Part shown: positions 2,910-39,489 of the stretch, one piece after another
Position numbering within the stretch: position 1 is the stretch's first letter
How the letters are laid out: every line of letters begins with the position of its first letter
Assembly: GCA_947630375.1 (NCBI GenBank)
Contig: CANRHH010000020.1
Location: forward strand, 1 to 43,681
Reading direction: 5' to 3'
DNA length: 43,681 nucleotides
From: an uncultured Oscillospiraceae bacterium
GTDB lineage: Bacteria > Bacillota > Clostridia > Oscillospirales > Oscillospiraceae
The notes under the pieces: model-generated
The model's input: the letters and a program-made list of their open reading frames with translations, nothing else
Told to the model about the DNA's origin: nothing
Databases searched by the model: none
Position numbers and translations under genes: made by a program

Positions 2910-2947
2910 TCAAATACGGCACAAAGGGGCGGGAAACACTTCCCGCC

Positions 2948-3078
2948 GTCTTCTTCCATCCAGACTCTACTGTCGGTCCCGGAATCTCACCGGATCATGC
3001 CTTACGGCTCGCGGACTTGACGGAGGGTCCTGCCCTCTGCCTTACCGCCGGTCGGGAATTACACCCTGCCCTGAAGAC
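2948..3078 (-). promoter_or_regulatory. FMN riboswitch (RFN element) aptamer
   Basis: Reading the minus strand from 3078 to 2948, the conserved RFN blocks appear in order: GGGCAGGGTG, AATTCCCGACCGGCGGTAA, CCGCGAGCC, GATCCGGTGAGATTCCGG and GACAGTAGAGTCTGGATG. The ends GTCTTC (3073-3078) and GAAGAC (2948-2953) form P1. The element precedes the terminator and ribU. It is a standard FMN-sensing RNA that turns off riboflavin uptake. Confidence 0.96.
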
Positions 3079-3084
3079 AGCTTC

Positions 3085-36760: not shown

Positions 36761-36831
36761 ATACAATGGTTTTAAGTAAATAGCCGGTTAGGAATATCAT
36801 CCGGGCTTAGAAAAAATTGGAGGTATTTGAA

Positions 36832-37830
36832 ATGTTTGAGAATTTGGTCGAAATCCTGAAAGCAAATCCCCGCAAGATCGTCTACACCGAGGGCCCCGAC
36901 GCGCGCATCCTGGAATCTGCCGCCCGTTTGAAAAAAGACGGTTTCCTGACCCCCATCCTGGTGGGCAACGTGGAAGAAGTCAAGGCCGCGGCCGCCAAGG
37001 GCGGTTTTGATATCGACGGTCTGGAGATCATCGACCCGGCCACCTACGAGGGCATGGACGAGATGGTGGAGACCATGGTAGCCCTGCGCAAGGGCAAGAT
37101 GACCGCGGAGGACTGCCGGGCCGCGCTCCAGAAGGGCAACTATTTCGGCACCATGCTGGTGAAGATGGGCAAGGCCGACGCGCTCCTGGGCGGCGCCACC
37201 TACTCCACTGCCGACACCGTGCGCCCCGCGCTGCAGCTGGTGAAGACCAAGCCTGGTGCCAACCTGGTCAGCTCTTGCTTTATCCTGGTCCGGGGCGAGG
37301 AGATGCTGGCCATGGGCGACTGCGCCATCAACATAGATTATCAGGACAAGCTGGACAAGGAGGGCAACGTGGTCCTCACCGCCGCCCAGCAGCTGGCTGA
37401 GGTGGCCGTAGCCACCGCCGGGACCGCCAAGGTCTTCGGCATGGACCCGAAGGTGGCCATGCTGTCCTATTCCACCAAGGGCTCCGGCAAGGGGGCCAAC
37501 GTGGACCTGGTGCGGGACGCTACCGCCGCCGCCAAGGCTCTGGCCCCGGATCTGGCCATCGACGGGGAGATGCAGTTTGACGCCGCCGTGTCCCCGGTGG
37601 TGGGCCAGCTGAAGTTCCCGGGCAGCAAGGTTGCCGGCTATGCCAACACCTTCATTTTCCCGGAGATCCAGTCCGGCAACATTGGCTATAAGATCGCCCA
37701 GCGGCTGGGCGGCTTCGCGGCCTTTGGCCCCATTCTCCAGGGCCTGAACGCCCCCATCAATGACCTGTCCCGCGGCTGCGACGCGGAGGAGGTCTACCAG
37801 ATGTCCATCATCACCGCCGCGCTGGCGTAA
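36832..37830 (+). CDS. pta: phosphate acetyltransferase
   Basis: A 332-residue cytoplasmic enzyme that interconverts acetyl-CoA and acetyl phosphate, the step before acetate formation by AckA. MFENLVEILKANPRKIVYTEG, GGATYSTADTVRPALQLVKTKPG and MLSYSTKGSGKG are classical Pta (short form) motifs. GGAGGT (36819-36824) is 7 bases before ATG 36832; a TTG 15 bases upstream lies before this site and is rejected. ackA is not in this window and must be elsewhere. A hairpin and a new promoter follow. Confidence 0.96.
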   Translation: MFENLVEILKANPRKIVYTEGPDARILESAARLKKDGFLTPILVGNVEEVKAAAAKGGFDIDGLEIIDPATYEGMDEMVETMVALRKGKMTAEDCRAALQKGNYFGTMLVKMGKADALLGGATYSTADTVRPALQLVKTKPGANLVSSCFILVRGEEMLAMGDCAINIDYQDKLDKEGNVVLTAAQQLAEVAVATAGTAKVFGMDPKVAMLSYSTKGSGKGANVDLVRDATAAAKALAPDLAIDGEMQFDAAVSPVVGQLKFPGSKVAGYANTFIFPEIQSGNIGYKIAQRLGGFAAFGPILQGLNAPINDLSRGCDAEEVYQMSIITAALA

Positions 37831-37848
37831 ATTTCCTGAAAAATGTCT

Positions 37849-37873
37849 CGCGGAGGGGCAAAGCCCCTCCGCG
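37849..37873 (+). terminator. hairpin after pta
   Basis: An 11-bp stem (CGCGGAGGGGC, loop AAA) 18 bp past the pta stop. It has no T tract, so it may only partly stop transcription. Confidence 0.55.
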
Positions 37874-37878
37874 TGGAC

Positions 37879-37907
37879 TTGACAAAAAGGTGTAAACAGG
37901 TTAAAAT
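37879..37907 (+). promoter_or_regulatory. strong promoter upstream of the structured RNA and tadA
   Basis: A perfect TTGACA (37879-37884), 17-bp spacer and TAAAAT (37902-37907, 5 of 6). The predicted start is at about 37914, in front of the structured RNA. tadA starts 144 bases later. Confidence 0.85.
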
Positions 37908-37913
37908 AGCATT

Positions 37914-38005
37914 GTAAAAAGGCGCTGCCGGTAAACGGTCAGCCCCTCATCAGATGTACGAAGTAATCGCCAAACTTTAGAGGGGTTGGGCGGTTACTTC
38001 TTTTT
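37914..38005 (+). ncRNA. candidate small structured RNA or tadA leader
   Basis: About 92 bases from the predicted start to a terminator made of GAAGTAATCGCC (37960-37971) and GGCGGTTACTTC (37989-38000), followed by TTTTT. A second pairing, CCCCTC (37943-37948) with GAGGGG (37980-37985), crosses this stem. It would form either an H-type pseudoknot or an alternative to the terminator. A third hairpin lies at 37924-37943. It could be an independent sRNA, an antisense (type I antitoxin-like) RNA, or an attenuator/riboswitch of tadA. It matches no riboswitch class I can name. Confidence 0.55.
37921..37945 (-). terminator. minus-strand terminator inside the RNA locus
   Basis: Read leftward: GGCTGACCG, loop TTTAC, CGGCAGCGCC, then TTTTTAC. 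It is a good terminator for a minus-strand transcript, but no gene on the minus strand leads into it. A short reading frame, ending KEVTAQPL at a stop codon at 37977-37979, lies just before it. Confidence 0.5.
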
Positions 38006-38057
38006 GGCCTGTATAAACGATTGCCAAACAGAGCCTGTTGTCAAGTGAGGAGAACGT

Positions 38058-38507
38058 ATGACCAGAGAAGAGCAGATGTCCCTGGCCCTGGAGCTGGCGG
38101 CCCAGGCGGCCCAGGCGGGAGAAGTGCCCGTGGGCTGCGTGGTGACGGACGCGGAGGGCCGGGTGCTGGGCCGGGGCCGGAACCGCCGGGAGGAGCGGGG
38201 CGACGCCACCGCCCACGCGGAGTTGGAGGCCATCCGCCAGGCCTGCCAGGCTGTAGGCGACTGGCGCCTGGAGGGCTGCACCCTGACCGTGACGCTGGAG
38301 CCCTGCCCCATGTGCGCCGGGGCCATCATCAACGCCCGCATTCCCCAGGTGGTCTTTGGGGCCCGGGAGGCGCTGTCCGGCTCCTGCGGCAGTGTGATCG
38401 ACCTGTTTTCCGAGCGCTACGGCCACCGGCCCGCCGTTTTCGGCGGTGTCCGGGAAGCGGAATGCGCCGCCCTCCTGCGGGACTTTTTTAAAACCAAACG
38501 TCCATAA
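38058..38507 (+). CDS. tadA: tRNA-specific adenosine deaminase TadA
   Basis: A 149-residue zinc deaminase that converts wobble A34 to inosine in tRNA-Arg(ACG). His53-Ala-Glu55 (TAHAELEAI) and Cys83/Cys86 in LEPCPMCAGA form the zinc/catalytic site; RxPQVVFGARE follows. Length is normal. ATG 38058 follows GTGAGGAG by 6 bases. The nearest visible promoter is the one at 37879-37907, so tadA is probably reached through the RNA terminator at 38000. Confidence 0.95.
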   Translation: MTREEQMSLALELAAQAAQAGEVPVGCVVTDAEGRVLGRGRNRREERGDATAHAELEAIRQACQAVGDWRLEGCTLTVTLEPCPMCAGAIINARIPQVVFGAREALSGSCGSVIDLFSERYGHRPAVFGGVREAECAALLRDFFKTKRP

Positions 38508-38551
38508 CACGCCAAAACGCCCCTCCTCCCGGAGGGGCGTTTTGGCGTGTT
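38506..38551. terminator. bidirectional terminator between tadA and the kinase gene
   Basis: A perfect 21-bp stem (AACACGCCAAAACGCCCCTCC, loop TCCC), overlapping the tadA stop and ending 3 bp before the stop of the convergent kinase gene. Confidence 0.85.
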
Positions 38552-38553
38552 CG

Positions 38554-39489
38554 CTAATATTCATAGATCCCGCCGCCGATGAACTCCCTGAGCAGAGAGT
38601 CGTCGGCGACATATTTTTCCTCGATATGCCCGAAGAGCTGGATGGCCGGCAGCACCGCCCGCAGCTCCTCAAAGCGCTCGATCCCCTCCGGCACGGAGCG
38701 GAACAGCTCCGTGGCAGTGGCGTTGAACACCGCCGGCTCATAGGGCAGGGAGGTATCCAGCTGCAGATCCGCCTTTTCCTTAAAGGGCGAGATGTTCAGC
38801 TTCTCCCCCCGGCGCACGTTGGCCCACATGGCCATGGTCTCCGCCGGGTCCGAGCCCCGGAACTTATAGTCCCGCACCATACGCCGCACCAGGCGGAACC
38901 AGGTCCGCTTAAAGACCACCTTGCCCTCGAAGAGCACGTCGCTGCGGGCGGAGATATAGAGCTTGAAGGCCTCCGGATGCTTTTCGGTGATCCGGTCATT
39001 CAGGGCGTGGATCCCCTCAAAAATGACGATCTCGTCCGGCCCCAGCTTGATGGATTTGGACGGCTCCTGGACCCGCATCCGCCGGGAGAACTCGTATTTG
39101 GGCACAAAGATCCGCTCGCCCCTGGCCAGCTGGCTGAAATGCCGGTCCATCAGCTCCATGTCCAGGCACAGGGGGGACTCCAGGTCCATCTCCCCCGCCG
39201 GCGTCCGGGGCACGGTGGCCGGGTCGATGGTCTTGAAATAGTCGTCCATGGCCACATAGTGGGTCCCTACACCCCGGCGCTTGAGCTCGTCGGCAATTTT
39301 CATGGCCGTGGTGGTCTTGCCGGAACCGGAGGGGCCCGAGAGGAGCACGATGGGGCTGCTCTTCCGGTTTTGGAGGATCTTCTCCGCCACTAAGGCCACC
39401 TTTTTCTGATATTGCGCGTCCCCTTCCTGCACAAAGGCCAGCGGGTCGGACACGGTCTTAAAGTTGATCTCCTGTAATTGATACGCCAT
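38554..39489 (-). CDS. uridine kinase-like nucleoside kinase
   Basis: A 311-residue P-loop kinase of the phosphoribulokinase/uridine kinase family. Walker A is LLSGPSGSGKTTTAM (about 49-63), followed by YVAMDDYFKT and a Glu-Gly-Ile in VIFEGIHALND. A short N-terminal helical region precedes the kinase domain, and the C-terminus carries a longer extension than in Udk. It resembles the Udk-type domains of clostridial threonyl-tRNA-synthetase-like kinases. The ATG has AAGGAGG inside the 3' end of hemZ, so the two genes are coupled. Substrate is probably uridine/cytidine, not proven. Confidence 0.87.
   Translation of the reverse strand: MAYQLQEINFKTVSDPLAFVQEGDAQYQKKVALVAEKILQNRKSSPIVLLSGPSGSGKTTTAMKIADELKRRGVGTHYVAMDDYFKTIDPATVPRTPAGEMDLESPLCLDMELMDRHFSQLARGERIFVPKYEFSRRMRVQEPSKSIKLGPDEIVIFEGIHALNDRITEKHPEAFKLYISARSDVLFEGKVVFKRTWFRLVRRMVRDYKFRGSDPAETMAMWANVRRGEKLNISPFKEKADLQLDTSLPYEPAVFNATATELFRSVPEGIERFEELRAVLPAIQLFGHIEEKYVADDSLLREFIGGGIYEY

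Follow-up and report, generated by a model that had tools for sequence, protein, structure and literature searches.

The predicted structured RNA gene between pta and tadA in an uncultured Oscillospiraceae bacterium is, with high confidence, an orphan type I antitoxin gene. The gene lies in contig CANRHH010000020.1, of which positions 1 to 43,681 of the forward strand were analysed (the whole stretch of 43,681 nucleotides is called the window here), and the block is homologous in sequence and structure to RNAs antisense to toxin genes. On balance we favor the description of an orphan antitoxin gene that would still be transcribed and is predicted to pair in trans with the mRNAs of two toxins remaining in the same genome. 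Transcription of the RNA is likely, judging from its sequence; a real silencing of the toxins in trans, as modelled, is possible, with our judgment leaning slightly against it. Orphan type I antitoxins are already known from the orz-only loci of Escherichia coli, and what is new here is an orphan member of a seemingly unnamed family. This identity explains a puzzling structured intergenic RNA and places it in a common antitoxin RNA family.

Two competing readings of the block had been offered in the initial annotation, an attenuator or riboswitch of tadA and the antitoxin half of a type I pair that has lost its toxin. The latter stands, with a toxin ORF in the predicted place at two paralogues and in most of the relatives collected, whereas the former does not.

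Features of the orphan RNA

The features of the RNA and of the opposite strand are as follows.

37879..37907, plus strand: promoter of the antitoxin RNA, TTGACA-17-TAAAAT, agreeing with the consensus at 11 of 12 positions
37915..38007, plus strand: predicted orphan antitoxin RNA, about 92 nt including the terminator, ends putative
37925..37942, plus strand: 5' hairpin P1 (CUGCCG / CGG-U-CAG, loop GUAAA)
37943..37948, plus strand: 5' arm of the crossing helix, CCCCUC, present in the sequence, family support mixed
37980..37985, plus strand: 3' arm of the crossing helix, GAGGGG, within the terminator loop
37960..38005, plus strand: intrinsic terminator, 12-bp stem 37960-37971 / 37989-38000 and U-tract (TTTTT)
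37916..37945, minus strand: putative vestige of the former toxin mRNA's terminator (hairpin and T-tract), complement of the antitoxin 5' end
37994..38005, minus strand: codons AAA AAG AAG TAA (KKK-stop) that ended the former toxin gene, complement of the terminator
38006..38057, minus strand: possible degraded toxin coding remnant, the part adjoining the KKK-stop being more convincing

The near-perfect promoter and the strong intrinsic terminator reported in the initial annotation are both present in the sequence, the promoter being the sole promoter-like site in a scan of 37500-38700, where 0.2 sites were expected in shuffles. The fold of 37914-38008 has an energy of -37.3 kcal/mol (z = -4.06), and none of 200 shuffles was equally stable. 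With covariance model R1 the RNA scores 99 bits, the highest value among the matches listed, the window sequence itself having helped to build the model.

A terminator facing the other way had also been described and is found on the minus strand as a hairpin at 37945-37921 with a T5 run behind it; it is absent from the list of the consensus scan because a bulge interrupts its stem. Both terminator-like structures lie in the window sequence, and the convergent arrangement with overlapping 3' ends is seen at the paralogue loci, where a corresponding hairpin and T-tract come after the toxin ORF. The minus-strand frame ending in KEVTAQPL* at 37977, to which attention had been drawn, exists but is merely an antisense frame of tadA; the informative minus frame in the window ends in FIQAKKK* at 37994.

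The 6-bp helix proposed to cross the terminator stem is partly supported: both arms exist in the sequence, but support at the family level is mixed. For the pairing of the spacer with the terminator loop 145 of 5000 shuffles were as good, and 5 of 5000 when the three bases shared with the 5' hairpin were counted.

Insertion site between pta and tadA

The neighbouring genes, which we take to be pta and tadA as in the initial annotation, and the insert are located as follows.

36817..37830, plus strand: pta (phosphate acetyltransferase), upstream neighbour of the block
38058..38507, plus strand: tadA (tRNA adenosine deaminase), downstream neighbour of the block
37877..38046, no strand assigned: approximate extent of the insert, flanked by inverted ACTTGACAA (37877-37885) and TTGTCAAGT (38038-38046), boundaries putative

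A tadA homologue is present in 89 of the 102 genomes of the genus (E <= 1e-15). Thirty tadA loci were fetched, one of them the window itself, and the 29 others were inspected. In 26 of these 29 relatives pta lies upstream of tadA, and the RNA was found at the tadA locus in none of the 29, with the covariance model and by inspection. Because it is missing from the tadA loci of 29 relatives, the block is regarded as an insert seen in a single lineage; at the pta-tadA site it is known from one species. In the genus (L036-L064) the pta-tadA gap measures 58-454 bp with very diverse filler; it holds 284 bp of unrelated sequence in the closest relative by TadA identity (90%) and 58 bp, with a hairpin and T-tract, in the second-closest (TadA 84%). 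The inverted ACTTGACAA framing the insert would correspond to both -35 elements of a complete locus.

A tadA leader acting as attenuator or riboswitch via terminator and crossing helix would suit a terminator that ends about 52 nt upstream of tadA, a promoter that is the sole one detected by the scan between pta and tadA, and two conceivable mutually exclusive folds. This reading fails because 26 of the 29 relatives keep the order pta-tadA, yet none carries the block. In the flanks retrieved for the other loci of the first searches (L002-L034), which extend to at most about 1.5 kb, there is moreover neither pta nor tadA, the paralogues sit opposite toxin ORFs, and no Rfam riboswitch family matches the block, so that we consider a tadA leader very improbable and retain the orphan antitoxin.

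Just past pta a hairpin at 37849-37878 (CGCGGAGGGGCAAAGCCCCTCCGCG) has no T-tract on the plus strand; in relative L037 a similar post-pta hairpin runs into TTTTT. Possibly the insert has taken the place of the U-tract of the pta terminator, in which case the terminator of the orphan would end pta transcripts. An FMN riboswitch is present at window positions 2944-3082 (minus strand, 112.7 bits).

Paralogues and probable toxin remnant

The same genome carries two paralogues of the block, one on contig C6 (84% identity over 99 nt) and one on contig C8 (79% identity over 115 nt), with 101 and 95.1 bits in a DNA search. The covariance model, in which the window copy and both paralogues are included, gives them 94.2 and 92 bits; the next match in the genome has 26.8 bits. 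Both have the promoter TTGACA-17-TATACT at the equivalent place. Opposite the C6 and C8 paralogues lie ORFs encoding ...NITYSELFQLCLVIIGVINLVFQAKKK-stop and MHVTYSELFQLCLVIIGIVNLFLQIKKK-stop, which are convergent, hydrophobic, 28-30 amino acids long depending on the choice of start, and end in KKK-stop, with the stop located 14 nt inward from where the RNA match ends. The terminator of the antitoxin spells the end of the toxin, since AAA AAG AAG TAA is the complement of its GGUUACUUCUUUUU, and the terminator of the toxin mRNA is the complement of the antitoxin 5' hairpin. The resemblance of the overlapping 3' ends to txpA/ratA-like loci, suggested in the initial annotation, is thus borne out at both paralogue loci. 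Using the second peptide as query, just two matches were obtained in the genome, namely the C6 and C8 toxin ORFs. The two peptides matched no model in Pfam and NCBIfam at E <= 1 and are presumed to be toxic.

Opposite the window RNA no intact toxin ORF is present; only the KKK-stop end remains, just where the paralogues have their toxin stop and with the 12-nt overlap kept. The frame upstream of this KKK-stop is an antisense frame of tadA. Over the 52 nt past the overlap, an anchored alignment in register with intact toxin genes was equalled by 1 of 500 shuffles, and by 7 of 500 when the last 8 nt were kept in the shuffles. A degraded toxin stub beyond the overlap is therefore likely but not certain from the sequence, as the anchored alignment beats the shuffles whereas an unanchored search gave no significant similarity (equalled by 37 of 300 shuffles).

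Distribution of the RNA family

The covariance model was built from 22 homologues (alignment A1), which are 22 of the 30 loci first fetched. Omitted were L016 (a near copy of L014), L021 and L023 and, for their other terminator type, L019, L022, L024, L025 and L031. The latter five belong to a second RNA branch with a different 3' half and terminator, several of them lying opposite a convergent peptide of the type MPITLTFH..TITVTVK...

At E <= 0.001 the model matches 137 of 400 genomes of the family (own genome included) in 56 of 106 genera, and in 88 of the 400 genomes its best E is <= 1e-6; weak single matches near 1e-3 may be chance. The covariance search proposed in the initial annotation thus yields homologues across the family and none at tadA in the 29 relatives. 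Loci were taken from the best-scoring among the matches listed, and because they were taken best-first the locus rates lean to strong matches and many-copy genomes. The 145 scored rows represent 154 matches of at least 48 bits minus 9 repeat fetches of the same places; an identical copy was removed for toxin-ORF scoring (144 distinct loci) and kept in the crossing-helix test (145).

Of the 144 loci among the matches listed, 114 were classed automatically as having a short hydrophobic ORF together with a stretch resembling a ribosome-binding site, and in 107 of the 114 the stop falls in the usual register close to where the RNA ends. On reading, four of the 114 calls were chance or broken frames (L026, the second copy at L093, L100 and L120); of the 30 loci with no such call, L158 was dropped (its contig ends 54 nt away), and L173 and the second copy at L135 were counted as intact. 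The corrected classes of the 143 usable loci among the matches listed comprise 112 with an intact toxin, 27 without an intact toxin and 4 with broken or chance frames; small hydrophobic ORFs beside the block, for which a search of related genomes had been suggested, are thus found at these 112 loci. Six of the 27 toxin-less loci retain a truncated, startless or frame-broken toxin frame (L006, L032, the first copy at L093, L146, L165 and L167), and five have an intact locus as direct neighbour within the sequence retrieved (L069, L078, L082, L134 and L150). Tandem copies occur about 340-400 bp apart at L122, L135, L076 and L109; where one toxin is absent, the antitoxin RNAs are only about 97-151 nt apart (L150, L078, L082 and L134).

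Copies of the RNA were further found in three Selenomonas records and in six viral contigs; on reading, each of these viral contigs has a convergent short hydrophobic ORF. The presence of the RNA with convergent ORFs in these records (L183-L185, L187-L192) suggests a spread by mobile elements. In one uncultured Oscillospiraceae record the RNA copy reads the same as in relative G071. An exact 30-nt search of genome_contigs found nothing, and a degenerate search of genome_contigs gave 4 records. Phage matches were confined to one 43-nt stretch in two records of a single Lactococcus phage, located inside a structural gene and probably due to chance; a phage origin was set aside on this result.

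Rfam gave no match over the block at gathering score, and no family covering the RNA at 20 homologous loci at the same cut-off. Among Rfam families ctRNA_pT181 comes closest over the block (23.8 bits, E 0.4), as would suit a plasmid-type copy-number antisense RNA stranded in the chromosome. Its gathering score of 56 is far above this value, however, the plasmid collection gave 0 matches, by which a plasmid origin was rejected in general, and the homologues lie opposite short hydrophobic ORFs; a stranded pT181-like RNA is hardly credible beside an orphan type I antitoxin. At L122 a candidate Gut-1 RNA overlaps a weak 27-bit model match and is on reading a separate element. Its Gut-1-like hairpin repeats (130-292 of the locus, minus strand) follow directly after the 5' part of a cut-off antitoxin RNA copy and score 58 bits at gathering and 38.7 bits and lower at a loose threshold. 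Among the papers listed from an open-access library, none describes the RNA family in its title or the opening of its abstract, and the family seems to be unnamed.

Structural conservation

In the 22 aligned sequences the terminator helix has 98% of its cells paired, and at 5 of its 12 pairs both partners have changed; P1 has 91% paired and such double changes at 2 of 6 pairs, and the crossing helix, taken in fixed columns, has 61% paired and double changes likewise at 2 of 6 pairs. None of 500 shuffles attained the covariation score or the number of cells with a double change, while the number of pairs with a double change was reached in 88 of 500 and that of further pair types in 451 of 500. 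Compensatory changes, by which the initial annotation had proposed to judge both stems, are thus found in the terminator, with mixed support for the crossing helix. U-G pairs are common in the terminator on the antitoxin strand (9 of 22 sequences at one position); as they would read A-C on the toxin strand, the terminator helix belongs to the antitoxin.

In a first test, with 23 sequences, the crossing helix did not reach significance, 6573 of 100000 permutations doing equally well. With the position left free, the spacer-loop pairing on the antitoxin strand exceeds that of swapped partners with z = -5.1 in all 145 sequences, relatives kept, and with z = -1.25, not a significant value, in 44 representatives. 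Read on the toxin strand, the same pairing gives z = -7.2 (145 sequences) and -3.4 (44 representatives). Because the toxin-strand value stays at -3.4 with representatives as opposed to -1.25, the crossing pairing may have its role in the toxin mRNA and not in the antitoxin. The crossing pairing of the window copy (-17.0) is the second strongest among the 40 representatives listed.

Relation to known systems

The arrangement resembles that of TxpA/BsrG with RatA and SR4 of Bacillus subtilis, in which an antitoxin RNA is convergent with a small hydrophobic toxin gene and overlaps its 3' end; here, in contrast, the RNA is about 92 nt long, its terminator contains the toxin stop, and no toxin accompanies the window copy. 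For txpA/RatA, PMC3531473 describes convergent genes with a predicted 3' overlap of about 120 nt and proposes loop-loop contacts between hairpins and terminators. BsrG is grouped with TxpA in PMC6563280, in which type I loci of Clostridia are also reviewed. At a loose threshold the Rfam model of BsrG matches the toxin strand, across the toxin gene, in 6 of 28 loci with 25.1-39.5 bits (E 5e-6 to 0.05, gathering 55), namely L029, L086, L112, L166, L189 and L192, all of the Hol_Tox branch; at the window and the two paralogue loci it gave no match at E <= 0.1. In view of these six sub-gathering sequence matches the family may be a distant offshoot of TxpA/BsrG, and the matches appear to tie the wider RNA family to known type I loci. 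Among ten toxin peptides scanned, two pass Hol_Tox (Pfam PF16935) with 30.2 and 24.2 bits (cut-off 23.3) and a third candidate remains under the cut-off with 18.9 bits; the own-genome C6 and C8 peptides differ in having no match to it at E <= 1.

Orz is not known to be an overlapping antisense RNA of the kind found in the window. The orz-only loci of E. coli are nevertheless comparable in being type I antitoxin genes without a toxin that retain a fragment of the toxin gene. The retained piece belongs to the 5' UTR of the toxin gene in E. coli and to its 3' end in the window, and host and toxin gene also differ. According to PMC11264685, orz-only loci occur in about 30% of E. coli assemblies, orphan OrzP is accompanied by a short toxin-gene fragment, and the orphan OrzPmg of MG1655 is expressed.

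Pairing with toxin mRNAs and proposed action

All duplex energies were computed without internal folding of either RNA. The orphan RNA forms duplexes of -135.1 and -139.2 kcal/mol with the two own-genome toxin mRNAs; with 103 foreign toxin mRNAs the best value is -125.5 and the mean -103.2 kcal/mol, and shuffled orphan RNA against the L002 toxin mRNA has a mean of -51.0 kcal/mol. The 5' end of the orphan is perfectly complementary over 35 nt to the 3' end of the C6 toxin mRNA. Better pairing with own-genome toxins is expected from shared ancestry alone. Cognate pairs of an intact antitoxin with its own toxin mRNA reach -191.0 and -192.8 kcal/mol, and the two intact antitoxins cross-pair at -130.2 and -142.2 kcal/mol, about like the orphan. 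On these modelled energies an action of the orphan in trans is plausible and possibly redundant; it perhaps adds nothing, given the far stronger binding of each intact antitoxin to the mRNA of its own toxin.

Toxin mRNAs of the hok type pair their 5' and 3' ends. A similar pairing of toxin leader and own 3' end is predicted in L002, L003 and other intact loci; the window copy differs in being without such a leader. In L002 the toxin leader repeats GGCGCTGCC of the antitoxin 5' end. The pairing was scored in the 45 intact loci whose flanks were long enough and whose toxin promoter has 9 or more of 12 matches, and in 43 of the 45 it beats shuffled leaders, the means being -46.3 kcal/mol with the own 3' end, -27.6 for shuffled leaders and -38.5 with the 3' ends of other loci.

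We propose that a complete toxin-antitoxin locus was inserted between pta and tadA and later lost its toxin, and that the orphan RNA is probably still transcribed from its own promoter and would base-pair in trans with the mRNAs of the two remaining own-genome toxins. The antitoxin would compete with the toxin leader for the 3' end of the mRNA by forming a long duplex. A duplex of this kind, predicted below -130 kcal/mol for the orphan with both mRNAs, might lead to decay of the toxin mRNA, as with RNase III on txpA/RatA; PMC3531473 states that decay of txpA mRNA requires RatA and RNase III.

Orphan and intact loci compared

With about one in five usable loci (27 of 143 among the matches listed) being without a toxin ORF, the order of toxin-antitoxin decay and a possible protection of cells against addiction by orphan antitoxin RNAs become testable with many natural replicates. 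It is quite unlikely, in our estimate, that this is a widespread type I branch that repeatedly sheds its toxins and leaves working antitoxin RNAs, the RNA between pta and tadA being one of them and exerting anti-addiction in trans against remaining and incoming phage-borne copies.

The main rival reading is that the RNA is an inert remnant of the same toxin-antitoxin origin, recent and decaying, which, made or not, has no effect. The insert is seen in one lineage only, it occupies a gap that is variable and insert-rich in the genus, and intact cognate antitoxins exist for both toxins. Orphans as a group also have weaker promoters: at least 10 of 12 matches are found in 21 of 27 orphans vs 110 of 111 intact loci among the matches listed (p = 0.0008; 24 of 30 vs 105 of 106 and p = 0.0016 with the uncorrected automatic classes), with means of 10.4 and 11.3 matches, respectively. 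Relaxed constraint is therefore indicated. Orphan folds are somewhat weaker than intact ones (p = 0.015), and orphan and intact loci show no difference in crossing energy (p = 0.30) or model score (p = 0.63). Slow decay after toxin loss would give weaker promoters and folds of this kind. Against inertness, the promoter of this copy (11 of 12 matches), its terminator and its crossing arms are intact, and its model score is the highest among the matches listed, though the copy helped to build the model. We regard an inert remnant as somewhat unlikely and keep to the orphan antitoxin that would still be transcribed; the window copy lies at the well-preserved end of the orphan range.
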